Positions 21,913 through 58,741 of a DNA stretch of 64,000 nucleotides are shown piece by piece. The notes below the pieces were generated by a model. It did no database searches, was not told where the DNA came from, and was given only the letters and a program-made list of their open reading frames with translations. Source of the DNA: Bradymonas sediminis (GTDB taxonomy: Bacteria; Myxococcota_A; Bradymonadia; Bradymonadales; Bradymonadaceae); the NCBI RefSeq assembly GCF_003258315.1, contig NZ_CP030032.1, positions 2,581,804-2,645,803 of the forward strand. The letters run 5' to 3'. A program made the translations under genes and the position numbers. Each line of letters opens with the position of its first letter. Position 1 is the first letter of the stretch.

Positions 21913-24204
21913 TCAGAGGTTGCCCGCGTTGCTCGAAACATGGGTGAGCGACTGGGGAATCTGGCGAAGCTGAATCGTGTCGAAGTCAAACCCCGGCAGG
22001 AGCCCGAGCTTGATCATCGAGTGGCTCCAGGTGAGCGCGTCGTTCTCGGCGGTAGCCGCCGGGTCGAGCAGTCCATTATAGGCCGCGCGCGGCCACCCGC
22101 CCGGAAGCGTGGGCAGCGTAAAGTCGGCCTGGTCGCCGCGGGCGTGAATCGTCCAAAGCGGCCGGTAAGTGGTGCTTATTTTGTCATCCCCGCAGACGTT
22201 GTAGACCCGGTCGACGCGCTGACGAAGCAGCGTGCGGCGAACGTCGGCGAGCCCAGCAGCTCCGGCGCCCGGCTGGGCGTTCGCCGCCGACGCGCTAAAG
22301 GTTTGGCCATTTCGGCTCAACGTTTGAAGCGCAAGATAATCATCGAAAACGAGGTTGCCTCCCCCGGCACCCCAGCCCAGGTCGCGCTTCACGATGAGGC
22401 TGACGCCCCCGGCGACATCCGGGCTCGGCGCGGCGTCCGCGTCAAAATAACTCGCCACGCTCACCGCCAGATATTCAATGCCGGCAAACGGGCCGCTCGC
22501 CGCCACCGTGGTGAGGTTCGACAGCGCGAACGTCCCGCCCGCGCCAACCTCGGGCTCGACGCCCAGGCCCATCAAAAACAGGCGTCCCTCTCCCGGAGCG
22601 AGCGCCGGGTTCGCCGCGCTATCCCAGTCTCCCATCATCATGCAGAAGACGTTGCTGTCGGCGGGCGCCCCCGACCCCGAGCAGGTCACGTTCGCCGCGA
22701 GCGATTCGCTCAGGCCGACATTCACATTATTGCCCCCCCCCGACGATACGCCAACGACCTGCGATTTCACGCCGATCTTCTTAAACGCAAAGCCCGCCAG
22801 CATATCGAGGATCGAGCCGCTCTGAACGGTCGCGGCCGAAACATTGCCGCCAATCCCGAGCAAATTATGCGCCCCGTGTCCCAGCGGAATGGACGTATAT
22901 TTCTTCTCGTTGACGCGAATCGCCCCGACCCATTGCTGCGGGATATAGATATTGTCCGAGAGCGGAAAATCTGAGAGCCATGAGTTCGCGTTATAACAAA
23001 TGCTATCGGCCAGGATGGAATCCAAATTGAAATCCATCAACTGCTCCATATTGATATCGTCGAACATCAGCCCCGCTTTGACCTCGGAGAGGGACCCGTC
23101 GGGTAAGTGATTAAGCGCCCCGGTATAGGTCTCGGTGGGCAGGTTGGGCTGCACCTTGTCGAGGTGCAGGACAATATCGGACGCGTTGATCTCAACCAGG
23201 GTCGAGTAGGCATAGCCGATCGCCCCGGCGGTGATGGTGGTCGCCCCGTCCAGCGTGTCGGAGAAGTCCAGGAACTCGGCGACGCCCTGGGCGTTGGTGC
23301 GCGCGGTATTCGCCTCATTCGGGGTCGAGGCGAGGTCTTCCTGGTAGGCGTTAAGCACCTGCGATTGGCCGAGCATCACGTAGGCATCGTTGATGGGCGC
23401 CAGGGTCGCGCCGTCCAAGACTTTAACCCGCATATGCCCGCCCACCTGGCAGCCACCCGCGCCGGCTCCATTGCCGTTCAAGGGCGGCGCGACGTCGACG
23501 GTGACATCGCCGATGCTGCCATATTCCCCGCACGAATCCATCGCCTCAATGGACACGCTGATGGGCGCTACGGACGTCGCCGCCGGGGCGTCTAAATACG
23601 CATAATAACTATTGCCGGTCGGGGTCACGGCGAGCGAGTCCCCGGCGTTTGTGGTCATCGAGATGGTCAAATAAGCCTGGCCCTGAGCCTCGACGATGAT
23701 GGCGCTTCGCGCGCCGCTCCCCGCGGTGAGACAGGCGTTGGTGACGTAGATGTCGTCGACCACCGGAAGCGCGCACCCGGAGGAATCACCGGTAACTGAC
23801 ACATCTCCTGCGTCCGAGGCATCTCCAGTATCCGTCGTGTCGCTGACATCCGACGCGTCACCGGCGTCCGGAGCGTCGCTGGTGTCCGACGCGTCGCTGA
23901 CATCCGACGCGTCGCTGACATCCGACGCGTCGCTGACATCCGACGCGTCGCTGACATCCGACGCGTCGCTGACATCCGACGCGTCGCTGACATCCGACGC
24001 GTCGCTGACATCCGAAGCGTCACTGGCGTCCGACGCGTCGCTGACATCCGACGCCCCAGAGCTGTCCTCAAAGCCTCCTCCGTCGATGGTACTCACGTCC
24101 TCCATATCCCACGGCGGCGGCGTCGCGGAGCCGTCAAAACTACATCCATTGCTCCCAAGCAATAATACAGTCGCGATGATTACAGTCGAAACGCGCGTGC
24201 TCAT
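21913..24204 (-). CDS. Lipoprotein with Asp/Ser repeat stalk
   Basis: 763 residues; the ATG at 24204 has GGGAG upstream and yields the lipobox LGSNGC. Right after the anchor lies a stalk of about 80 residues made of six-residue units DASDVS (repeat at 23809-24054). A beta-rich body follows, beginning with Ig-like segments (VDDIYVTNACLTAGSGARSAIIVEAQGQAYLTISM). A carboxypeptidase-regulatory-like segment comes next (GHMRVKVLDGATLAPINDAYVMLGQ... TDAQGVAEF-type), and the C-terminal half is of unknown fold. The Asp/Ser stalk resembles the Sdr linkers of Gram-positive adhesins in composition only. It is probably a surface-exposed outer-membrane lipoprotein. No enzyme motif was recognised. Confidence 0.78.
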   Translation of the reverse strand: MSTRVSTVIIATVLLLGSNGCSFDGSATPPPWDMEDVSTIDGGGFEDSSGASDVSDASDASDASDVSDASDVSDASDVSDASDVSDASDVSDASDVSDASDVSDASDTSDAPDAGDASDVSDTTDTGDASDAGDVSVTGDSSGCALPVVDDIYVTNACLTAGSGARSAIIVEAQGQAYLTISMTTNAGDSLAVTPTGNSYYAYLDAPAATSVAPISVSIEAMDSCGEYGSIGDVTVDVAPPLNGNGAGAGGCQVGGHMRVKVLDGATLAPINDAYVMLGQSQVLNAYQEDLASTPNEANTARTNAQGVAEFLDFSDTLDGATTITAGAIGYAYSTLVEINASDIVLHLDKVQPNLPTETYTGALNHLPDGSLSEVKAGLMFDDINMEQLMDFNLDSILADSICYNANSWLSDFPLSDNIYIPQQWVGAIRVNEKKYTSIPLGHGAHNLLGIGGNVSAATVQSGSILDMLAGFAFKKIGVKSQVVGVSSGGGNNVNVGLSESLAANVTCSGSGAPADSNVFCMMMGDWDSAANPALAPGEGRLFLMGLGVEPEVGAGGTFALSNLTTVAASGPFAGIEYLAVSVASYFDADAAPSPDVAGGVSLIVKRDLGWGAGGGNLVFDDYLALQTLSRNGQTFSASAANAQPGAGAAGLADVRRTLLRQRVDRVYNVCGDDKISTTYRPLWTIHARGDQADFTLPTLPGGWPRAAYNGLLDPAATAENDALTWSHSMIKLGLLPGFDFDTIQLRQIPQSLTHVSSNAGNL
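23809..24054 (-). repeat. 18-bp tandem repeat array encoding (DASDVS)n
   Basis: On the plus strand the unit is GACATCCGACGCGTCGCT. Six copies at 23899-24006 are identical, and about seven diverged copies flank them on both sides. The repeats are in frame with the lipoprotein gene, so copy-number change would alter stalk length without a frameshift. Identity at third codon positions indicates recent expansion. Confidence 0.92.
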
Positions 24205-24310
24205 AAAACTCCCGGGAAGCGGATGGTTCTTCGTCATTGAGGAAAAAAGGAAGGGGTCGCAGCGAAGGTGCTCGGTGTAGCATACGCCGGTCAATCGCGG
24301 GGGATGCGCG

Positions 24311-26428
24311 CTAGATGAATTTGGCGATGCCCACGCCGATATTGTCACCGCCGCCGCCGCGATTCGCCAATAAGATCAGCTCAAGGCAGGCGAGCGCGGG
24401 GTCGGGCTCCGAGACGAGAATATGGTGAATATAATCCTCGGCGGTCAGCATATGAGCCGCGGCGAAATCAACCAGCCCGTCGGTCGTAAGCAGGAGCGTA
24501 TCGCCGCGAAGCAGCGGAAAGGAGATCACGTCGGGCTCGGGGTTGAGCGCGTGCAGGCGCTCGTCTCGCAGCATAAAGGTCCCGAGGCAGCGCGCCAGCG
24601 CATCCCCGTGGGGCATCGCGAGCGCGCTGTCGGCGGCCATGCCATCGAGAATACTCAGCGTCCACAGGTTATGGTCGGTGGTCACCTGCTCGAAGAAATC
24701 ACCGCGCGACAGATAGACCCGGCTGTCACCGAGCGTCACCAAGGTCACAACGCCGTCGTAGAAAATCGCGGCGAGCACGGTCGAGCCCATGACCTCGTGG
24801 GGGCCGCCTCGGAAGGGAAGAAAACGCGCGTTCACATAATCGACGAGCCGATCATTTGCGCGATTTAAAATTTCCTGGAGCACCACTTGCGGCTCAATCG
24901 CCTCATCCTTTTTATAGGCTTCGTGCAACTCCTCCCAGGCCACCGACGCCTCAGCAGCGAGCGCCCCGCTGGCCAGGTCACCCGAACCATAGCTGGCCGT
25001 CGACACCCCGTCGGCGACCACCATCAGCGAGAGGCGATGGTCCTCGGAGACGCCGACAAAAACGGCGTCCTGATTCACCGGGTTCCGCTGCCCCTTGGCG
25101 ATCCCGACGTGGGTGTCGACGGCGACCGAAACACGCGGCGGCTGCGCGCGCGTGCCCTCAGCCCGCGCGACCATCACGTCACACGCATATTCAAACGCCT
25201 TCAGCAGCGCATCGACCGTGGGGTAGCGCTCGGCGGGGTCTGGGCGCGTCGCGCGACCGATCACCGCCTGAAGCCCCGGGGGAAAGTCCGGCCGCAGGTT
25301 GCACGCCGGAATCGCCGGGGTCTCGCGCGTATAGACCGACACCGGCGGAATCTGACCGGCGACCAGGAAATACAGCACCATGCCCAGGCTGAAGATATCG
25401 CAGGCTTCGTAATTGTCGATGGGTCCCTGAGCGATGAGCTCGGGCGCTGAGAATCCACGGGTGAAGAGTATATTCTCAAGGTTCGCGTCGACCTTTACGA
25501 ACCCATCGATGCCGTCAAAAAGCAGCTCCAAGCCCGAGATGGCCGCCGCCGCGTGCGCGGGCGCCGGGGCGGTGTCGCTCGCCACCGTCTCGCCGCCAGA
25601 CAGCGGGATTACATCGTCACGCGTAACCTCAAGCTCGCGCGCCATGGCGAAGGGATTCGAGCTCGCCAACGGCGCCGGCGCCGCGGCCTCGCCTTCGTCC
25701 TCCGAAAAGGTCTCCTCATCTCCCAACCCCGTCCGCTGCCCCGCTTCGTCGACGTTCATCACATCGCGCAAAAACTCGAGCGGAATCCCCTCCGGGTCTT
25801 TGCGGTCGCGCATGCGCAGCAGCCACGGGGTCAGCCTCAGGTGAACCAACCCCTCGCGGTGCACCAGCGCGACCGCGTTTAATACCGGCAAAAAGAGGGA
25901 GCGAATCTGGCGAGGCGAGAGCCGCCCCACGCCCACCTCGACCATCTCATCGAGGGCGAGGCCGCCGTCGTTTCGAAAGACCGACAACTTCGTCCCCTCG
26001 CGGCGCAGCTCGGTGATCGGCCGGCGCACCCAATGCTTGAGATTGTTGGGGACGAACTCGACGGCGCCCAGGACGTCGTCGACCTCCTGCTCGACCACCA
26101 GCGTCAAATCAGTCAGGTTCTCACAAAACTGCGCGTCGTTGGGCGCAATGTCGCCACATGACCAGCCGCCGAGGTGGGCCAACAAAACGCGGCGATGGTC
26201 ATAATGCTCCCATAATTCGACCAGCTCCAACTCAAGGCGAAGCGGCGCGCTGTCGTCGGATTTTAGACCCAGCAGGCCCGGGTCGAGCGACAGGCTGAAA
26301 TGATCGCCGACCTCCAACCACACCGTATTTGCGTCGGCGTCGTCGGGCATATGCCCACAATTTCCGCAGCGCTCGCCGCGCGCCACTGCCCCTCCACACT
26401 CGATGCAGATTATCTCCGGAACCATCAT
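24311..26428 (-). CDS. Pseudokinase fused to a PP2C-type protein phosphatase
   Basis: 705 residues. It starts with a zinc ribbon (CIECGGAVARGERCGNCG, residues 8-25). Residues about 110-415 have the C-lobe pattern of a Ser/Thr kinase: 'FLPVLNAVALVHREGLVH', 'GFSAPELIAQGP', 'CDIFSLGMVLYFLVAGQIPP' and 'PDPAERYPTVDALLKAF'. The catalytic loop reads HLRLTPWL where kinases have HRDLKPEN, so the catalytic Asp is Arg198, and no Gly-loop or DFG is evident. Residues 435-705 are a complete PP2C: NQDAV, VADGVS, GSTVLAAIF, LGDSRVYL, TTDGL and GGGGDNIGVG, with metal-binding Asps retained. I infer an active phosphatase controlled by a dead kinase domain. The substrate is unknown. Confidence 0.88.
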   Translation of the reverse strand: MMVPEIICIECGGAVARGERCGNCGHMPDDADANTVWLEVGDHFSLSLDPGLLGLKSDDSAPLRLELELVELWEHYDHRRVLLAHLGGWSCGDIAPNDAQFCENLTDLTLVVEQEVDDVLGAVEFVPNNLKHWVRRPITELRREGTKLSVFRNDGGLALDEMVEVGVGRLSPRQIRSLFLPVLNAVALVHREGLVHLRLTPWLLRMRDRKDPEGIPLEFLRDVMNVDEAGQRTGLGDEETFSEDEGEAAAPAPLASSNPFAMARELEVTRDDVIPLSGGETVASDTAPAPAHAAAAISGLELLFDGIDGFVKVDANLENILFTRGFSAPELIAQGPIDNYEACDIFSLGMVLYFLVAGQIPPVSVYTRETPAIPACNLRPDFPPGLQAVIGRATRPDPAERYPTVDALLKAFEYACDVMVARAEGTRAQPPRVSVAVDTHVGIAKGQRNPVNQDAVFVGVSEDHRLSLMVVADGVSTASYGSGDLASGALAAEASVAWEELHEAYKKDEAIEPQVVLQEILNRANDRLVDYVNARFLPFRGGPHEVMGSTVLAAIFYDGVVTLVTLGDSRVYLSRGDFFEQVTTDHNLWTLSILDGMAADSALAMPHGDALARCLGTFMLRDERLHALNPEPDVISFPLLRGDTLLLTTDGLVDFAAAHMLTAEDYIHHILVSEPDPALACLELILLANRGGGGDNIGVGIAKFI

Positions 26429-26515: not shown

Positions 26516-28594
26516 CTAATACAAGTCCCTAATCGTGCACAACCCGCTATTGACCATTGATTGGCTCACCAGCGGCGGTTGCTCAGCCGGCCTGGCCGGC
26601 ATCAACTCATCGACCTCGTAGACATGAAAGCCCGGCGAGCCCGCCTGGTTCCAGTGGATTCGCCCAACATCCCAGAACTGATTGCCCCGCGCCATCGGCT
26701 TATTAAGCGCCTCGAACACAAGGTTTTCGTTGATATAAATTCGAATCGTTGCGTAGGCGGTGCCGAACGCCTCACGATAATAGTGCACCCCCACCCCGTA
26801 CCACTCGCAATTCACCGGGTCGTCCAGGGTGATATTCTCCGGCCCCATTCCATCGATATCATCGATGTCGAGTCGCGGACTCTCGGGATTCCAGATGCCG
26901 CCGCCGCTATTATTCGAGTTTCGAAAATAGATATCATAGGGCGACTCGAACCATTTTCCGGGCCCTAACTTCACAAAATGAAGGTCGAGGTCGCTGCCAT
27001 TGGCGTCGGTCTCGTCGGGGTCCTCGGGGTTATGCCAGGTCAGCTCGATATGGATCTTCTTATTCGGGATCGCCACGATGGTCGCCACCGCCTGATTGCA
27101 GGAGGTGAACCCTTCGTTGTCGACGACTTCAAGCCCCAACTTATAGGTACCGGTCAGCAGCGCGCGAAACTCGCGCCTTGAGGGATCCGCGTCGGCGCTG
27201 TCTTCGACCGTGGGGCCAAGGTCCACCTCGGTGCCGTCAGGCACCTGCAGCGCGGTCCACTCATAGCTCACGACCTGGCCGTCGGGGTCGTGACTGCCGG
27301 AGGCGTCGAGCACGATATAATCAAGGGGCGTGGCGCTGATCGTGGGGCGCCCCGCGCCGGTCTCGCCGCGCACCTTTGCCTGCAGGCTTGCCACCGGGCA
27401 AACACCGTCTGAGCCGCGCGCGACCAGGTCCACTTCGAACTCAGGTTGAGCCGGGTCGTTGCTCTCGATGAGCAGCTTCCCCGTGTCACTTCCAACCTCG
27501 CGCGGGGCGTAGTCCACGCGAAAGGTCGTGTCCTCGTTGGGCGCGATGGTTACGCTCTCGGCCAGTGAACCATCGGCCTCAACGGCCCATGAGCCAAAAT
27601 CAAGTGAGAACTCGTTGCTGGCGGAGTTCTCGAGGATTTCGATATTTGAAATCACCAACGCCTCGGAGCCACAATTGGTCACGAGCACCGTGTGAGGACG
27701 AACGGCCCCGACAGGGACCGGACCAATATTGCGCACGCTGCCGTCCACCATAATGCAAGGAGCCACCGCGTTGGCCAGCACATCCACGTATTGGATGCCA
27801 CGCCCGCTTTCTTGGGTACCCTCCTGGGTGTCATTTGATTCCACCCGAATCTTGCCAACGCCGGCGCTTCCGGCGCCTTGCGGCCTGTAATGAACCATCA
27901 CCTCGAGGCCATAGGCGCTCGGGTTCTGCGCGGCGAGCGAAGCCTGGTAGGGTTGCAAAACAACCTCGCTGTCTGACAGCGGGTCAATCGAGAACTCCGA
28001 ACTTCCCGAATAGCCAACGTCATAGATAATCAGCGGCGCGGTGCCGTAATTATAGATCGTCAACGGGCGTTGCCGGGCCTGACCGACCGGAGGGAAACTC
28101 ACGGTGCGCGGCGAAAACGAGATCTGGGGCCGGTTGGCCTGGGTATCGACATTGAGCGAAAACGGGGTCTCTCGCCCGTAATTCGGGTCACTGCTCACCA
28201 CGTCGATCTTCGCACGATTAGCTTCACCGGTCGCGCGATACTCGACCTTAACGGTGCGTGACTCCTCGGCCGCGAGCTTGAACTCAGCCGTAGGCTTGTC
28301 CAGCAATTTCAGGTCAGCGACGCGGCCGCCATCGCGCGCAGCGAGCGCGACGCTATAGATCGTGAGCGACTCGCTGGGATGGATGTTGGTAAGCGTGACA
28401 TCTTGCACCTGGGTCTCGCCCAGGGCGACCTGCGAAAAAGAGACGTTCAAGGGCTGAACCAAGAGCCGGCCCGAGGTCCCCGTGACGATGCTCCCTTCGC
28501 CCTCAGAGTCGCTACACGCGCCCAGCGTAAGCCCCAAGGCAAGACAACTCAGCAGAATAACCAACGCCCCAGAGTGCCGCTTGAAAAACTGCAT
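26516..28594 (-). CDS. Lipoprotein with ASH-like repeats, PKD domain and YfaP-like C-terminus
   Basis: 692 residues from the ATG at 28594 (GAG eight bases upstream; the frame opens at 28615). The signal ends at the lipobox LTLGAC. Three ASH/choice-of-anchor-D-like beta domains follow ('VSFSQVALGETQVQDVTLTN', 'VSFPPVGQARQRPLTIYNYG', 'RNIGPVPVGAVRPHTVLVTNCG'). A PKD/Ig-like domain is next (LDASGSHDPDGQVVSYEW). The C-terminal region holds 'HIELTWHNPED... SDLDLHFVKLGPG', which resembles YfaP/DUF2135 modules. It is probably a lipid-anchored surface protein for carbohydrate or protein binding. No catalytic motif was found. It is close upstream of the pseudokinase-PP2C gene (87 bases), so the two may be co-transcribed. 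Confidence 0.8.
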   Translation of the reverse strand: MQFFKRHSGALVILLSCLALGLTLGACSDSEGEGSIVTGTSGRLLVQPLNVSFSQVALGETQVQDVTLTNIHPSESLTIYSVALAARDGGRVADLKLLDKPTAEFKLAAEESRTVKVEYRATGEANRAKIDVVSSDPNYGRETPFSLNVDTQANRPQISFSPRTVSFPPVGQARQRPLTIYNYGTAPLIIYDVGYSGSSEFSIDPLSDSEVVLQPYQASLAAQNPSAYGLEVMVHYRPQGAGSAGVGKIRVESNDTQEGTQESGRGIQYVDVLANAVAPCIMVDGSVRNIGPVPVGAVRPHTVLVTNCGSEALVISNIEILENSASNEFSLDFGSWAVEADGSLAESVTIAPNEDTTFRVDYAPREVGSDTGKLLIESNDPAQPEFEVDLVARGSDGVCPVASLQAKVRGETGAGRPTISATPLDYIVLDASGSHDPDGQVVSYEWTALQVPDGTEVDLGPTVEDSADADPSRREFRALLTGTYKLGLEVVDNEGFTSCNQAVATIVAIPNKKIHIELTWHNPEDPDETDANGSDLDLHFVKLGPGKWFESPYDIYFRNSNNSGGGIWNPESPRLDIDDIDGMGPENITLDDPVNCEWYGVGVHYYREAFGTAYATIRIYINENLVFEALNKPMARGNQFWDVGRIHWNQAGSPGFHVYEVDELMPARPAEQPPLVSQSMVNSGLCTIRDLY

Positions 28595-28828
28595 AGAATA
28601 TCTCGGTCTTCGCACGTAGATTTCTCTTAAAAATATCGCGGCGAAGTTAGCCTCGCCGCGACCTGCAACTCCCAGCTTTTATCGCTCTAATTTTGCCAAG
28701 AAACGGGAAGCAAAAAGAGGCTGTTTCAAATCCAAATTTGACGTTCAAAAAATAGAGAATGCCCCCGGTGATGTCAACGTCACCCCTTGCCAGCACGCGC
28801 CTCCTACGGCTCTACGTGGCGTTGCAAG

Positions 28829-29578
28829 TCACCCACGGAACTCCCCCCTGACCCGCGGTGCGTGAATCTCGCCGCGCGCGCCCACGCGAAAGCGCTCGGC
28901 GAGCGCAGCCTTCATGTCTTTCTCGGAGAGCGTGCGGGTCTTGATGTCGCCCGCCTCAATGGGCGCTACCCCCTGCTCCTCGACCTCAACCTTGCGCCTG
29001 CTGCACCTCCCGTCATCGGCACCCTTGCCCAACCGCCCCGCCCGCTCAAAGGCCTTTTCATAATAGGTCAAAAAACTGCGCGCCCGCTGCCCCGCAACCT
29101 GTTCCGCCGAGGCATCCAGGGTCACCGCCTTGATGAACCGCTGCTGGGCGCGCGGGTATTCGCCCAGCTGAAGCAACGCCTCCGCGCTGCGACACCAGAG
29201 CATCGGGTCGGCGACCCGATTGCGCAGCGCAGCCTCGAAATTTTCGAAGGCTTGGGCCCACTCCCGTCGGCGCATCGCGATATCTCCGAGCACCCGCCAG
29301 GCGCGCGGGCGATGCGGGTCAAAGGAAAGGACTCGCCGCGCGACGCCCTCTGCCTTCGCCAGATGCCAACTCCGGCATAGGCGCTGCGCCTGAAACTCGA
29401 GCGCGGCGAGGGCGTGCTCAGGGATTTGAAGACTTGCCGCGCGCGATTGAGTATCGGCTTTAGCCGGCGTAGGTTCCGTGGCATCGCCCCGCGGCCGGCC
29501 GCCCTCTAAAACCGCGCGACTGGCGGCTTCGCGCGCCATCAAAAGCCGGCGGCGTCGAGCTTCGCGTCGCTCGTTCAC
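28829..29578 (-). CDS. TPR protein, SycD-like, last gene of a three-gene operon
   Basis: 249 residues. Residues about 55-190 have three tetratricopeptide pairs (LAALEFQAQRLCRSWHLAKAEGVARRVLSFDP, RAWRVLGDIAMRRREWAQAFENFEAALR, LWCRSAEALLQLGEYPRAQQRFIKAVTLD). This three-TPR arrangement with short flanking regions resembles class II chaperones of type III secretion (SycD/LcrH), though the family is divergent. The N-terminus is Arg-rich and the C-terminus charged. Its start overlaps the stop of the upstream gene by four bases (ATGA at 29575-29578), so translation is coupled. There is no signal peptide. The role is inferred from the operon only. Confidence 0.68.
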   Translation of the reverse strand: MNERREARRRRLLMAREAASRAVLEGGRPRGDATEPTPAKADTQSRAASLQIPEHALAALEFQAQRLCRSWHLAKAEGVARRVLSFDPHRPRAWRVLGDIAMRRREWAQAFENFEAALRNRVADPMLWCRSAEALLQLGEYPRAQQRFIKAVTLDASAEQVAGQRARSFLTYYEKAFERAGRLGKGADDGRCSRRKVEVEEQGVAPIEAGDIKTRTLSEKDMKAALAERFRVGARGEIHAPRVRGEFRG

Positions 29579-30135
29579 GGATGCCCCGCGGCACTGGTTT
29601 CACGACTGCTGCATTGGGCGATATTCTGCAAAACACTCGAGCGCTTGTGATGCTGCGAGCCGCTCGGGAGCACGTCGATCGCGGCCAATAAGAAGCGATT
29701 CGCCTCATCCGCATGCCCCGCACGAAGCTTCGCCTCACCGAGCTTGGCCAGGATCTCCCCGTCTTCGGGGTTCAACTCATGAGCGCGCTCAAATTGCTTC
29801 ATCGCCGCGCCGTAGTCTGACTTCTGCAGCAGGATATCTCCCAGAAGCAAATGCGGATACGCCCGCGTAGCGTCGAGCGCCATAACCCCGCGCAACAAGG
29901 TCTCGGCCTTGTCGAAGCTCTTCACCCCGTAGAACTGATAGGCCTGGGCAACCGCGTCGTCGATAAACCCATCCCCAATGCCAAATAGATCAGCCGTGCG
30001 CTCCCCATTGAGCACCCGCTGGGCGAACGCCGCCATCTTTGCGGCGAGCTCCGCCGACGCCGCCTCATCGTGATTGATGGCCGCGTCAGCAACTCTGTCG
30101 GCTCGCTCCGTCGATTCGCTCATCTGCTGCTTCAT
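29575..30135 (-). CDS. SycD/LcrH-like TPR chaperone candidate
   Basis: 186 residues from the ATG at 30135, chosen for the strong AAGGAG just upstream; the open frame continues to 30270. The region 'AVAQAYQFYGVKSFDKAETLLRGVMALDATRAYPHLLLGDILLQKSDYGAAMKQFERAHELNPEDGEILAKLGEAKLRAGHADEANRFL' follows the SycD/LcrH layout. It has three TPRs, starts with an 'LA-xxY' helix and has the 'G-xxx-AExxFxxLxxLD' spacing. Such chaperones bind translocator proteins of type III systems. It lies between a cysteine-free secreted-type protein gene (upstream) and a second TPR gene (overlapping, downstream). The chaperone role is inference and no other type III gene is in the window. Confidence 0.72.
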   Translation of the reverse strand: MKQQMSESTERADRVADAAINHDEAASAELAAKMAAFAQRVLNGERTADLFGIGDGFIDDAVAQAYQFYGVKSFDKAETLLRGVMALDATRAYPHLLLGDILLQKSDYGAAMKQFERAHELNPEDGEILAKLGEAKLRAGHADEANRFLLAAIDVLPSGSQHHKRSSVLQNIAQCSSRETSAAGHP

Positions 30136-30262
30136 TCCCTCTCCTTTTTTGCTGAAAGATATCATCTGTCTGGACCAGCCAGCCACGCCACTGCAATTCA
30201 TTGATGCCCCTGAGCGCTTCGTGGGCGCCGCGCCTCTCACGAAACGCTCATGATGAAGCGCG

Positions 30263-30982
30263 TTAGACACGCATATTATTAATCGCCGCCTTGGCCGTAT
30301 CGTGCAGCGACTTCGACATATTGCTCATCATCGAGAACATCTGGTTCATCTCTTGGAGCTTTGCGTTAATCGTTTGCAGAGCAATACCGCGTTGCTCAGG
30401 ATCCAAACCCTTCAATGTCGCCATCGCGGCCGCGGGATCAGTACTCATCAATTTCACCATATTATCGACATCCAAATCAGCGATATCCAAGTAGTCACCG
30501 GAATCAACCGCATCTGAAGACGAAGACGTGCCGCCGGCCCCCGAAGCTCCGTCCGCTCCTGATGCCCCACCGGTCCCAGAAGCCCCGCTCGCCCCCTGCG
30601 AAGCCGGCGGCCCGGAGACCTGCGCAGGCGGCAATCGGTCCGCGATCATCAACTGCTGCTCCACGTGATTCATTGAGTTTTCGGCGCGCGCCATCGCGGC
30701 CTCAACCGCCGAATGATCACCGTCATTTTGCTTATTTCCAGCGGTGGTATCATATCGGCCACTATTGGTTGCGTAATCGAGTCCCTGCTGAATCGCAGCT
30801 TCTGCTTTATCCAGGCTCTCGAGCATCGACTCCCTCTCGGAATCCGACAAATTGGGGTTGTTCTTTACCTGCTCCCTCATCTCCTGGACATCTTTGAGGT
30901 CGCTCTTCAAATCGTCGAATCGACTCTCGAAGCCCTCATAAACCCTTGTTCCGCCATGCTGCACCGTGCCTAAACTCGTCAT
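30263..30982 (-). CDS. Cysteine-free helical protein, candidate type III-like secreted filament protein
   Basis: 239 residues from the ATG at 30982 (GGGAG upstream; an alternative GTG at 31009 is weaker). There are no Cys residues and no signal peptide. The N-terminal half is helical and charged (FESRFDDLKSDLKDVQEMREQVKNN). The middle is a Gly/Ala/Ser-rich linker (GASGASGTGGASGADGASG). The C-terminus is helical with a Met/Ser/Asn pattern (INAKLQEMNQMFSMMSNMSKSLHDTAKAAINNMRV). That C-terminal pattern recalls EspA/SctF-type secreted subunits, which lack Cys and have a coiled-coil C-terminus. Next to two SycD-like TPR genes, this suggests a secreted substrate with chaperones. Identity is not proven. 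Confidence 0.6.
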   Translation of the reverse strand: MTSLGTVQHGGTRVYEGFESRFDDLKSDLKDVQEMREQVKNNPNLSDSERESMLESLDKAEAAIQQGLDYATNSGRYDTTAGNKQNDGDHSAVEAAMARAENSMNHVEQQLMIADRLPPAQVSGPPASQGASGASGTGGASGADGASGAGGTSSSSDAVDSGDYLDIADLDVDNMVKLMSTDPAAAMATLKGLDPEQRGIALQTINAKLQEMNQMFSMMSNMSKSLHDTAKAAINNMRV

Positions 30983-31363
30983 GATGGTCTCTCCCGTAGT
31001 TGTGCTCACATTGACCAGAATTATTGAACTCCCATAACCATAGAACGACTGAGGTGCGAGGTGCGCATCCGCGCTGCCCTCCCATTAGTTTTCGGCAAAG
31101 CAGCGCGATTTGTTGCGTGATTCACAAAACAAAGCCCAACAACCCCACAAAAACCCAACAAATTAAACACCTTAGAAAACACCGCATTTTCAAAAAATCG
31201 CAGTCCTCTGTTTTTCGAAGACCCCAATCCCCTCACAACCAACCCCAAAACATCCACCGAAATCCCCCCAATAAATGTCACTTGCTAAAAGAACGCCCGC
31301 GTCTACACTTGCGCCTGACCTGCTGAACGAACGCTCAGATACCGACTTGAATCAATAGACCCC
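30983..31363. other. AT-richer divergent intergenic region
   Basis: A spacer of 381 bases between the type III-like operon (minus) and the helicase gene (plus). GC falls sharply at about 31120-31290, with many A and C runs. Promoters for both directions must lie here. I see no convincing gene; the reading frames through it have repetitive, non-protein-like composition. Confidence 0.5.
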
Positions 31364-35313: not shown

Positions 35314-36540
35314 ATGGCCGAAGAAATTTTTTGTACCGCCTGCAACACCACCAACGACGCATTCGCTCAAGAGTGCGTGGCCTGTGGCGCGGAGCTCGAC
35401 ACCACCGGCGGATATGAGTTCGCCGAAGCTCCCGAAGTTGGCACCGAAGAATTCGAGCTCGAGGCGGAGATGGTCGCCGACGAACAGGACGAATTCTCGG
35501 CGGGCTACGGATTCGCAATCGAACAGACCGACGCAAGCGACGACCGGGCCGCTCACCAGTTTGACGCGAACGACGACGATGCCCTCTACGAACTTGAGGT
35601 CGAGGCCGTTGGCGACGACAACGACCTCTACGAGCTTGAGGTCGACTCCGCCGAAGACGACAACGACCTCTACGAGCTTGAGGTCGAAGCGACCGACGCC
35701 GGAGATTTCGATGCCCCGCAAGACGATTTGCTCGCCGCCGACGGCGGGATGCCCCTCGACGCCGCCAGCGACGCTGAAATCTTCGGCGAAGAAGAAGCAC
35801 CTTCGGATGAAGTCGGCTATGAACTGACCGAACAGAGCGAGGCCACCGCGGGCGACGACGTATCGGTCGCCGCCGAAGAAGAAACACCCGCGGAGCTCGC
35901 CGCGATTTTGAACCCACCGCGCGTCGAGCGCGAACCGATTCTCCCGCTGCCTACGCCAGGCGAATATAGCGACCCGGCGAGCCTTCGGGTTTTTATCGAT
36001 GGCAATGAGCGCGGTGAGCTGGCGATTGACTCGGCCTGCACTGTCCTCGGTCGCGCCGTCGCCTCCGACGACGTCGAGGCGTATGAGCTCGAGCCGAGCT
36101 CAAACGAGTTCCCCTTCGACGGAGATATTGAGGACGAGCCGGTCTTTGACCTGCACGAAATCAGCGAGCCGAGCGACTCGATGGAACTGCTTGCGGGCCG
36201 CATCGAGGACGAAGAAGACACGTTTGGCGCGGCCGAGTCCGAAGGTGTGGATGAGCCCGCCGAACCCGTTGTCGCGGCTGTCCCAGCCCAGGACCCCGAC
36301 GACCTGGAAGAAGGACCGGTCATTGACCTGAGCCAATACGCAAGCGCGGCGAACTTCGCGCTTCGCCATGGCTATATCTTCCGCCAGAACAAAAACTATA
36401 CCCTCTGCGTGCTCTCCGATATGGGAACACAGCTCAACGATGAGATGCTCGAATTAGGCTCGCGCCGCACCCTGAATCACGGCGATTTAATCATTCTCGG
36501 CGGCGAGGTCGGCCTTCAGTTCCGAGTGCCGGCGAATTAG
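35314..36540 (+). CDS. Zinc-ribbon protein with interrupted FHA domain
   Basis: 408 residues. An N-terminal zinc ribbon (CTACNTTNDAFAQECVACG, residues 7-25) precedes a very acidic disordered region of about 190 residues with three repeats of LYELEV...DD (residues 91-130). The FHA fold begins at 'LRVFIDGNERGELAIDSACTVLGRA' (residues 224-248), where LGR is the FHA core. It resumes only at 'DLSQYASAANFALRHGYIFRQNKNYTLCVL' and ends with 'GTQLNDEMLELGSRRTLNHGDLIILG'. About 85 acidic residues sit between the two halves. FHA domains bind phosphothreonine. This fits the kinase-like and PP2C proteins elsewhere in the window, but no direct link is shown. Confidence 0.75.
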   Translation: MAEEIFCTACNTTNDAFAQECVACGAELDTTGGYEFAEAPEVGTEEFELEAEMVADEQDEFSAGYGFAIEQTDASDDRAAHQFDANDDDALYELEVEAVGDDNDLYELEVDSAEDDNDLYELEVEATDAGDFDAPQDDLLAADGGMPLDAASDAEIFGEEEAPSDEVGYELTEQSEATAGDDVSVAAEEETPAELAAILNPPRVEREPILPLPTPGEYSDPASLRVFIDGNERGELAIDSACTVLGRAVASDDVEAYELEPSSNEFPFDGDIEDEPVFDLHEISEPSDSMELLAGRIEDEEDTFGAAESEGVDEPAEPVVAAVPAQDPDDLEEGPVIDLSQYASAANFALRHGYIFRQNKNYTLCVLSDMGTQLNDEMLELGSRRTLNHGDLIILGGEVGLQFRVPAN

Positions 36541-56036: not shown

Positions 56037-58514
56037 TTATTCAGCGTCCCCGCAGCAGCGGAAGCCGATATTCGAGCTGCCCGAGCCCGGCGCTTTGGCC
56101 GAGGAATAGCCGCATTGCGCGACGTCCGAACCGCTGTCGAAACCACCGCCAGCGATGCGTTGCTCGGCGACCCACTCGTGGGCGTTTCCGACCATATCGT
56201 AGGCCCCGGAGCGGCTGCGGCATTGCTTGAAGGAGCCCGCGGCAGCCAGGCTGCGCTCGAACTCGTCTTCGTCCACGGTATTGCAGCTATCGGGGTTCCA
56301 CTTGCTGCCGTAGGGGTATTTGCTACCGCAGGCGCTGCGCCACTCCTGCTGCTTGCACAGGCGCGCGCCGCGGGCCTCGCAGAGTTGCTGGGCCTGGAAC
56401 CAACTGGCGTTGGTCTTGGGCTTGGAGCCGCGGCCCGGGTATTCGTAGGCGTCGATGCAATAATTGCCGGATTTGCGCTTGATAAGCAGCATCCCCGCTT
56501 TGCATTTGGTGCCGGCGGCGGCGACCTTCTCAGCCGGCTTGTCGGCCGGTTTCGCGGCGCCCTTTGCGGCAGCCGGCGACACAGCAGCGCCCTTAGCGGT
56601 CGCGGTCTTCTTCTCGGCGGCCGGCTTCTCTGCAACCTTTTGCTCAGCGGCGCGCGCGCCGTCGGTTTGCTCCGAAGCCTCGGCTTCAGCGGCGGCGGCC
56701 GCCACCGCGGCGGCTTCCTGCGACGCCTTCTCTCCCGCCTCTGCCTGGGCTGCGGCCGCCAGGGCTCCCGCGCTCTCAAGCGCCTTCTGGCTGGCCGCGA
56801 AGACCGCCTGCTCAGCCTCCTTCTGCGCGACGCTGACCTTCTCAGACATCGCCTGCGCGTCCGGGTCCGCGGCCACGGCTTCTGCGCCACTCGCCTGCTC
56901 CGCAGCTTCCTCCTTCTCGCCATCCTTCGCCGAGTTCTCGGCGCTGACGGTCGCGGAATCACCGAGCTCAACCTTCTCGGCCGGCGCGTCCCGCATCGCC
57001 CAAGCACCCACACCGACGATCAAAAAGAGCGCCAGGATGCCGGCGAGGATGACCCCCGGCGACAGGCTGGAGCGCTGCTTAGCCGGCGCGGCGCTCGGCG
57101 GCGCCGGCTTGACCGATGTGGTCGTCGGCTCCACCTCTGCGACGCTTGGGATGCTCGGCAGCTTCGGAATATCCTTCGCATCCGCCCCGCTCTTCTTGGC
57201 GGCTGCGGCGGGCTTTTTCTTGCCCCCCTTATTCTTGCTCTTTTTCTTCTCCCGCACGACATCCCGCGGCACCTCATTGGTGGCCAACAGGTCGCCTAGC
57301 TCCAGGTCATCGTCCTGGGAGTCGCGCACGTACTCACGCGTCGCCATATCGTCGGCAACATTCTCCGCGATCGCCGCCGCGTAGTCGCTCGACTCGCTCA
57401 GATCGCTCAACGCATCCCCAGACTCAAGCGTCGCCTCATCGGCCTCGAGCTCGGGCGCCGCGACCGGAATCGCTTCACCCTCGGCGTCATCGGGCGCCAC
57501 CGGACGCACAACCACCTTGGTGGCCTCATTGTCGCCCGCCTGAAGATGATAGGGCACGCCGCCGAGCAACGCCCCGGTGTCGATAAGCGTCGAGAAGTCC
57601 TCGCTGAGCGCCTCGAAGCTATCGTAGCGCTCGGCCGGGTCCTGGGCACAAGCCCGCCGGCACAAAGCGTCGAGCGGACTGGTCGCCGCCTCGGTCGCCC
57701 CGGGCGTATAATCCGGCCCAAAGACCATCTCGCCGATCATCAAGCCAAGGCTGAAGATATCGCAGCGCGGGTCAATCTCGCCGACTTCTACCGACTTGTC
57801 TTTGAGCGCGCGCAACTCGGGGGCGAGGTAGCGGCTCTCGGCCAGGCGCGGGATCACCTGTTCGGTGTCAAACGCGGCCAGCAAATAATGGTCGGTGAGC
57901 TTGATGAGCTCGGGCATCAAAATAATATTGTCGGGCTTTAAGTTGCCGATCGGGAATTCCCGGTGCACATGCCCGGCCGCGCGGATGATCTGATTGAGAA
58001 TCGGCTCAATCTCATCAAGCGGAAAATGCTCGCGTTTCTGGCGGCGCATCTTCATCACTTTGCGCAGGCTCAGCCCGTCGAGCGCCTGCATCGACACCCA
58101 CGCATGATCTTTGTGCACCCCGCTGCAATGCACCCGCACCACATTGGGCTGGGTCAGCGTGCGCGCGGTGCGCGACACCTTCAGGAAGCGCTCCTGGTCC
58201 TGAGGCTTGGCGATCAACTCGGGCGTGAACACCTTGAGCGCGACCTGCGCGTCAATCAGCGAATCCTGCGCCCGGTAGACCTCACCGAAGGGCCCTCGCC
58301 CGATCAACTCCCCGAGGATAAAGCGCTCGGAGACCTCTTCGTTGGGCGGAAAATACCGGTCTTCGACCTGAATGGCGCGCATTTGGCGCGTCATGCGCTT
58401 GAGTCCGTCCGAGCGCAACTTCGCACGCCCAACGCCGCGTTTCAGGTCGGCTTGGCAATTGGGGCAGGTCGAATCTGTCGCGGAAACCGGGCTTCCACAT
58501 TGATGACAAAGCAC
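56037..58514 (-). CDS. Membrane kinase-like protein with degenerate active site and C-terminal FGE/SUMF1-like domain
   Basis: 825 residues; the GTG at 58514 has AAGGAG seven bases upstream and starts just before the zinc ribbon (CHQCGSPVSATDSTCPNCQ). In the kinase domain (about residues 65-330) the Gly-loop (LIGRGPFGEVY), the ATP-binding Lys94 (DAQVALKVF), Asn196 in LKPDN and an APEL activation-segment end are intact. The catalytic HRD Asp is Asn191 (IGNLKPDN), and DFG is D208-H-Y. A basic/Ala-rich linker, one membrane helix (VILAGILALFLIVGVGAWAM) and a long coiled Ala/Glu-rich stalk lead to a C-terminal domain like FGE/SUMF1 sulfatase-modifying proteins ('LCEARGARLCKQQEWRSACG', 'YDMVGNAHEWVAEQ', 'NIGFRCC'). 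ATP binding without normal phosphotransfer is likely. Confidence 0.86.
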   Translation of the reverse strand: MLCHQCGSPVSATDSTCPNCQADLKRGVGRAKLRSDGLKRMTRQMRAIQVEDRYFPPNEEVSERFILGELIGRGPFGEVYRAQDSLIDAQVALKVFTPELIAKPQDQERFLKVSRTARTLTQPNVVRVHCSGVHKDHAWVSMQALDGLSLRKVMKMRRQKREHFPLDEIEPILNQIIRAAGHVHREFPIGNLKPDNIILMPELIKLTDHYLLAAFDTEQVIPRLAESRYLAPELRALKDKSVEVGEIDPRCDIFSLGLMIGEMVFGPDYTPGATEAATSPLDALCRRACAQDPAERYDSFEALSEDFSTLIDTGALLGGVPYHLQAGDNEATKVVVRPVAPDDAEGEAIPVAAPELEADEATLESGDALSDLSESSDYAAAIAENVADDMATREYVRDSQDDDLELGDLLATNEVPRDVVREKKKSKNKGGKKKPAAAAKKSGADAKDIPKLPSIPSVAEVEPTTTSVKPAPPSAAPAKQRSSLSPGVILAGILALFLIVGVGAWAMRDAPAEKVELGDSATVSAENSAKDGEKEEAAEQASGAEAVAADPDAQAMSEKVSVAQKEAEQAVFAASQKALESAGALAAAAQAEAGEKASQEAAAVAAAAAEAEASEQTDGARAAEQKVAEKPAAEKKTATAKGAAVSPAAAKGAAKPADKPAEKVAAAGTKCKAGMLLIKRKSGNYCIDAYEYPGRGSKPKTNASWFQAQQLCEARGARLCKQQEWRSACGSKYPYGSKWNPDSCNTVDEDEFERSLAAAGSFKQCRSRSGAYDMVGNAHEWVAEQRIAGGGFDSGSDVAQCGYSSAKAPGSGSSNIGFRCCGDAE

Positions 58515-58741
58515 GAGGGCTCTCCTTGGGCGCAGCAAATGTACAGAGTTAAGGCACCGCAGTTGCGGCATTAAATCACAGGGTTGTTCCCATAATACAG
58601 CGAATGGGACTACCAAATCACCCCGCCACGCGCAACCTGTAGCGCGCGCGTTACACCCTCAAACCTTGACTTTCTGCATAGCAACCAGCATGTTGACGGG
58701 GATAGGAGTATAGCAACTTTTTCAGCCCTACAGGTGACAAG

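Follow-up and report, generated by a model that had tools for sequence, protein, structure and literature searches.

Bacteria with dozens of Ser/Thr kinases own only a few phosphatases, and target selection by these enzymes is in large part an open question. A gene of Bradymonas sediminis at positions 24311-26428 of the window (the whole 64,000-nucleotide stretch of contig NZ_CP030032.1 that was analysed) raises this question, as it joins in one chain a PP2C phosphatase and a kinase-like domain that an earlier note on this DNA had described as dead: what would such a domain do for the phosphatase that carries it? The analysis presented here suggests that the dead kinase probably sets the place or the time at which the phosphatase acts. 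Target choice becomes directly testable with a phosphatase that has a dead kinase built in and is conserved in a class of predatory bacteria.

Domain organization of the protein

The open reading frame (24311-26428, reverse strand, as are all features of the protein given below) encodes 705 amino acids, starts with ATG, contains no internal stops and comprises a zinc ribbon, a pseudokinase and a PP2C domain in this order, as assigned from the reading frame, Pfam and an AlphaFold model (44 sequences, pLDDT 85.2, pTM 0.85). The zinc ribbon (residues 8-24, CIEC...CGNC, positions 26357-26407) is weak by profile (DZR, E 0.088), yet the CxxC...CxxC pattern is there. The pseudokinase domain (residues 36-428, positions 25145-26323) has both lobes, recognised by profile and model through their similarity to PknB, and leads through a linker of about nine residues (helix 405-424, strand from 433 in the model) to the PP2C domain (residues 433-705, positions 24314-25132) with its five metal-ligand Asp residues, detected by Pfam, by these ligands and in the model. 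Between the catalytic loop and the activation segment lies a disordered insertion (residues 215-297, positions 25538-25786; pLDDT below 50 at residues 228-296); long insertions (52-166 residues) are confined to family f1, to which the window protein belongs.

Kinase fold and loss of catalytic residues

Regarding the kinase part, Pfam matched Pkinase over residues 314-361 alone (E 5e-7, just under the cut-off). A profile of 50 orthologs matched PknB in a profile search against the PDB (E 5.3e-23), and the pseudokinase profile aligned with 30 kinases of the same genome at E 7.6e-37 and 99.95% (hhalign, profile-profile). In the AlphaFold model, residues 38-417 superpose on PknB (Z 21.5, rmsd 4.0, 242 aligned) and residues 42-421 on the kinase homology domain of STK40 (Z 21.0); the bilobal fold of Hanks-type kinases is present by both the PknB profile match and the model.

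The motifs listed in the earlier note, APEL (residues 328-331), CDIFSLG (343-349), PDPAERY and HLRLTPWL (196-203, positions 25820-25843), are all there as described, and its reading of the catalytic loop, in which Arg takes the place of the catalytic Asp, is borne out by the alignments. With the 30 same-genome kinases (hhalign), VHLRLTPWLL falls on IHRDIKPSNI, which sets HLR on HRD and Arg198 on its Asp, and LELLFDGID falls on TKILDFGLA; the PknB alignment from the PDB profile search pairs the same columns. The note had also seen no DFG, and the position reads FDG (residues 304-306, positions 25511-25519). Asp occurs at the HRD position in none of the 53 orthologs (Gly in 22, Arg in 12, Ala in 6, Gln in 5, Leu in 3 and five singles) and at the DFG position in none either (Phe in 34, Leu in 16, Pro in 3), and the beta3 Lys is absent, residues 57-130 of the window protein being without any Lys. 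The profile alignments, searched for a functional HRD or DFG elsewhere in the domain as the note had proposed, revealed none hidden. All three residues that mark an active Hanks-type kinase (HRD Asp, DFG Asp and beta3 Lys) are missing, and an active kinase with displaced motifs is ruled out by the ortholog counts together with both profile alignments. From its sequence and its model, the kinase part is a predicted pseudokinase, whose kinase fold lacks every catalytic and ATP-anchoring residue.

The sole strictly invariant residues of the pseudokinase domain are Glu330 of the APE motif (residues 328-330, positions 25439-25447) and Arg401 (positions 25226-25228), both found in 53/53 orthologs, which we take to be the ion pair, between the APE Glu and an Arg, that secures the activation segment in kinases. 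Conservation of this pair therefore indicates a fold retained without the chemistry. It is highly improbable that the fold serves other chemistry, such as the transfer of nucleotides or glutamate known from SelO and SidJ: bacterial pseudokinases offer precedents, but SidJ keeps repurposed ATP- and metal-binding residues, as stated in the accessible part of a 2025 review (PMC12599244), and here every ortholog is without the HRD and DFG Asp and the window protein is also without the beta3 Lys.

The pTM of 0.85 suggests that the pseudokinase is packed in a fixed manner against the PP2C domain, and such two-domain packing favours a role in which the pseudokinase would sense a small ligand (nucleotide or metal) and gate the PP2C, the zinc ribbon providing the input. 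Nucleotide binding by pseudokinases of other families also counts for ligand gating. It is nevertheless distinctly unlikely here, since the beta3 Lys, HRD Asp and DFG Asp are all missing, no conserved pocket residue is apparent and the zinc ribbon, by the motif used, occurs in just 34 of the 53 orthologs. The sensor-gated switch proposed in the earlier note is not supported, its presumed sensor, the zinc ribbon, being dispensable and missing in 19/53, and the motif count in the orthologs rules out the ribbon as a defining sensor.

Constraint on the domain was estimated as dN/dS, a simple Nei-Gojobori count that is rough at high dS. In comparisons of L003, L006 and L008 the values were 0.055-0.086 for the N-lobe, 0.011-0.033 for the catalytic-loop segment, 0.024-0.056 from the activation segment to the end of the C-lobe, 0.17-0.19 for the insertion, which is the region of weakest constraint, and 0.008-0.019 for the PP2C domain. 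By these estimates the pseudokinase is under purifying selection in these three Lujinxingia-type genomes (dN/dS 0.01-0.09). Ten further pairs mostly gave pseudokinase values well below 1 too, and some pairs gave no ratio. Constraint was weak in the pair L048/L049, with 0.37-0.90 for the pseudokinase vs 0.09 for the PP2C domain, so the constraint on the pseudokinase is not uniform. Such a pair would be expected if the kinase part were a decaying passenger of an old kinase-PP2C fusion that does nothing beyond folding, and the strict invariance of Glu330 and Arg401 alone, as well as the relatives outside the class, in which mostly just a C-lobe remnant is recognisable, point the same way. This explanation is unlikely, given that the domain is retained in 53/53 orthologs with both lobes confidently folded and that purifying selection in L003, L006 and L008 is strong, including in the catalytic-loop segment.

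The phosphatase part and its clade

Pfam detected PP2C_2 in the protein at E 4.8e-9. The key Asp residues that the earlier note had reported as kept (D454, D473, D568, D650 and D695) are all present in the window protein; the first four are found in 53/53 orthologs and D695 in 52/53, the one miss being due to a contig end. The PP2C part of the AlphaFold model resembles PstP (Z 28.6, rmsd 2.7, 228 aligned), PppA (Z 28.5) and tPphA (Z 28.0). Both the fold and the metal-ligand Asp residues of the PP2C (PPM) family are present, and by these features the phosphatase looks alive. Its loop is unlike the canonical DGMGG(H), and activity is therefore not a given.

This loop marks a separate PP2C clade with the signature DG[VI]S...GSG where canonical PP2Cs carry DGMGG; in the window protein it reads DGVS (residues 473-476, positions 25001-25012), assigned to the clade by alignment and tree. 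Residue 476 is Ser in all 52 rows of alignment A1 and in 21 of 22 relatives outside the class, with Thr in the remaining one, and Gly in 23/23 canonical rows, duplicates included. In the PP2C tree, a branch with support of 99/98 sets 52 Bradymonadia sequences and 22 other relatives apart from 20 canonical PP2Cs; this tree holds 94 of 97 rows, three duplicates having been removed and the shortened L018 left out earlier, and the program issued a long-branch warning. One sequence, L189, bears a DGxS label in the tree that was given by pattern, while its real motif, DGIGG, places it in the canonical set. Membership of the Stp1/IreP equivalog NF033484 was rejected (99.5 bits against a cut-off of 230), as was the serine/threonine phosphatase PRK14559 (NF011149), which scored 50.1 against 374 bits and matched the C-terminal part alone.

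Distribution and inheritance of the fusion

A full ortholog of the fusion was detected in 53 of 57 related Bradymonadia genomes; the genomes without a fused ortholog, G001, G007, G044 and G055, have completeness values of 87, 87, 82 and 75, respectively. Alignment A1 contains 52 of the 53 orthologs, leaving out the near-copy L008, and alignment A2 contains 50, leaving out L007, L018 and L008. The presence of the ortholog in 53 of 57 genomes rules out a chance fusion or an assembly artefact. There is strong support, class-wide, for the central claim of the earlier note, a dead kinase and an intact PP2C in one chain. The named relatives include Lujinxingia vulgaris (L076) and other Lujinxingiaceae, Bradymonadaceae or Myxococcota bins, and come from a set of loci that covers largely the same genomes as the 57-genome search and is not independent of it. 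The contigs of L115, L128 and L135 are titled as Klebsiella pneumoniae bins yet carry Myxococcota-type genes, and these titles look wrong. A single-protein search of genome contigs returned no relatives.

A scan of the phylum covered 284 genomes, 277 of which had any match at E 0.001. Full-length high scorers were those of the class Bradymonadia, and weaker matches in other families spanned the C-lobe and PP2C alone. A profile of 21 relatives from outside the class aligned with kinases over the C-lobe alone (97%, 79 columns; hhalign). Inspection of 17 Myxococcota relatives, most of them from outside the class, revealed neither a canonical HRD nor a canonical DFG motif, and among the clade members seen none had a kinase part that looked live. 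Judged by these sequence comparisons, the pseudokinase-PP2C fusion is inherited across the class Bradymonadia, and its PP2C clade is one that extends to other Myxococcota, there also fused to what would be an eroded kinase C-lobe.

Gene neighbourhoods

All 13 loci of family f1, the window among them, have a co-directional gene for a choice-of-anchor-D lipoprotein upstream; in the window it is at 26516-28615 (reverse strand; choice-of-anchor D / PKD by Pfam). Also on the reverse strand of the window are a lipoprotein-like ORF (21913-24348) in which SDASDVSDASD-type repeats form a long run and, at 28829-31009, two TPR proteins with weak similarity to SycD/LcrH-type chaperones, adjoined by a protein without a clear family match.

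Other families have other neighbours. A VWA-like protein is encoded downstream, mostly overlapping, in 12/12 loci of f3 and 3/3 of f7. Pfam VWA matched none of the four f3 and f7 proteins scanned; against PDB profiles they gave mostly VWA matches, which were weak (best E 0.005), and most f3 members are linked by HMM to Pfam-confirmed VWA proteins. In families f2 (5/5 loci) and f4 (6/6) a small Roadblock-like protein is encoded at most 1.3 kb from the fusion gene. A PDB profile search with this family gave no match, and its assignment comes from fold comparison, the best hits being MglB and a Roadblock/LC7 domain at Z 11.7 (model pLDDT 90.9). The window's genome has one Roadblock homolog, unlinked (C1:359546), and a search of this genome for the VWA family was negative.

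A second copy of the fusion, in which the HRD position is also lost and DGVS is present, occurs in three f2 genomes and is followed in 3/3 loci by genes for a VWA protein, a zinc-ribbon/FHA protein and an active-looking kinase with VLIK, YMDLKPDN (2/3) or FMDLKPDN (1/3) and DFG. At L192, the one locus scanned with Pfam, VWA (6.5e-20), FHA and Pkinase were supported. A fourth f2 genome shows the same gene order, its fusion gene being cut by a contig end. This set of pseudokinase-PP2C, VWA, zinc-ribbon/FHA and active-looking kinase genes is seen in the f2 genomes at L192, L193, L194 and L200, and the Roadblock gene lies a few kb from it in L192, L193 and L194. The VWA-FHA-kinase trio is also found without an adjoining fusion gene in f1, f2 and f6 genomes. 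Outside the class, an active-looking kinase is encoded at most 1.4 kb downstream on the same strand in 6/22 loci, some contigs ending early. Kinase, PP2C and VWA genes are side by side at the second f2 copy (3/3 loci) and not in the window.

A zinc-ribbon and FHA protein is also encoded in the window (35314-36540, forward strand; Pfam, homology), and is related to the FHA protein of the VWA-FHA-kinase module, at 48% over the FHA part. Matches were found in 25/57 genomes. In the closest relative, G010, the genes for the FHA protein and the fusion are far apart, and their 9-kb closeness in the window may therefore be chance, so that the link between the two is uncertain. The earlier note's zinc ribbons in this protein (Zn_Ribbon_1, E 0.002) and in that encoded at 56037 (Zn_ribbon_3, E 3.6e-4) were both recovered. 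The latter (56037-58616, reverse strand) is likely a second pseudokinase, with the Gly-loop and VALK kept, IGNLKPDN in the catalytic loop (Asp to Asn) and DHY in place of DFG, and has a C-terminal FGE-sulfatase domain besides the zinc ribbon.

Proposed role of the pseudokinase

A protein-protein role is supported over sensor gating, the neighbours of the relatives being VWA, Roadblock, FHA or kinase genes. We consider it probable, at roughly 60%, that the pseudokinase is a docking or allosteric module and that the protein is the phosphatase arm, with an active PP2C, of a kinase-phosphatase-VWA-FHA signalling module. The pseudokinase would dock the PP2C onto targets or partners, and might gate it, rather than being a remnant; the targets would most likely be Hanks-type kinases and their phospho-substrates, and the co-workers would be VWA and FHA proteins, joined in some lineages by Roadblock proteins. 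Loss of the catalytic residues in 53/53 orthologs, set against retention of the PP2C ligands in 52-53/53, argues for this role, as do the kinase fold seen by profile and model, the two-domain packing suggested by the pTM, the purifying selection on the pseudokinase in L003, L006 and L008 and the signalling genes next to the fusion in relatives. Against it are the partners, which vary by lineage and in the window's genome are unlinked or absent, the steady f1 neighbour, a lipoprotein that the model leaves unexplained, the weak constraint in L048/L049 and the C-lobe remnant that is mostly all that is left outside the class.

The window's genome, a single contig of 5.05 Mb, has 82 Pkinase vs 5 PP2C_2 matches; one phosphatase would therefore have many kinases to serve, and a targeting device is plausible. 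A tentative extension, possible though doubtful, is that in this clade of myxobacterial-type PP2Cs the retired kinase is a targeting subunit that pairs with live Hanks-type kinases via the shared fold, so that one phosphatase could police some 75-80 kinases, its input being set by a VWA, FHA or Roadblock partner.

Comparison with known systems

TerY-P-type and YegI-PphC-YegL gene sets have kinase, PP2C and VWA genes side by side. Compared by this definition, they resemble the second f2 copy in gene adjacency. They differ from it in that its PP2C is fused to a pseudokinase and that a gene for a zinc-ribbon/FHA protein joins the set; the window is without VWA. The single-domain PP2Cs Stp1, PstP and tPphA share the fold and the metal ligands, but have the canonical loop and no pseudokinase, and the present protein is otherwise in both respects. 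A Chloroflexota protein (L148:7335-8981) has a zinc ribbon, a kinase-like part and a PP2C in the same order; it reads HNN for HRD and HFG for DFG, and its PP2C is canonical and outside the clade. Its origin is apparently separate.

The bacterial pseudokinase families ActPs1-3, GLW, CP1, DYD and DLHK were reviewed in 2025, and are like the present domain in being Hanks-type folds with all or some of the motifs lost; in the accessible text of that review, 'PP2C' is absent and 'phosphatase' appears in one reference title alone (PMC12599244). The GLW pseudokinases are described there as having GLW for HRD and a transmembrane segment after the kinase domain (PMC12599244), whereas the present protein has HLR and a PP2C directly after the domain. 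For the CP1 pseudokinases, compared by description, the same part of the review reports a COG3899 ATPase (PMC12599244), which Pfam did not show in the 24311-26428 protein. Fusions of PP2C and a Hanks-type kinase in one bacterial chain were reported from Pseudomonas in 2005 with the PP2C N-terminal, and the kinase part is not called inactive in the accessible part of that paper (PMC1262709); here the PP2C is C-terminal and the kinase dead.

The nearest concept is that of the kinetoplastid kinatases, in which, according to the accessible part of the source, pseudokinase domains with the HRD Asp replaced share one chain with a presumably active phosphatase (PMC2175518). These protozoan proteins have two pseudokinase domains, LRRs and a dual-specificity phosphatase (PMC2175518), whereas the bacterial protein has one pseudokinase, a PP2C and no LRR in Pfam. 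No description of a bacterial pseudokinase-PP2C fusion was found in open PMC papers, subscription journals being mostly outside this search. The fusion can be regarded as a bacterial counterpart to the protozoan kinatases.
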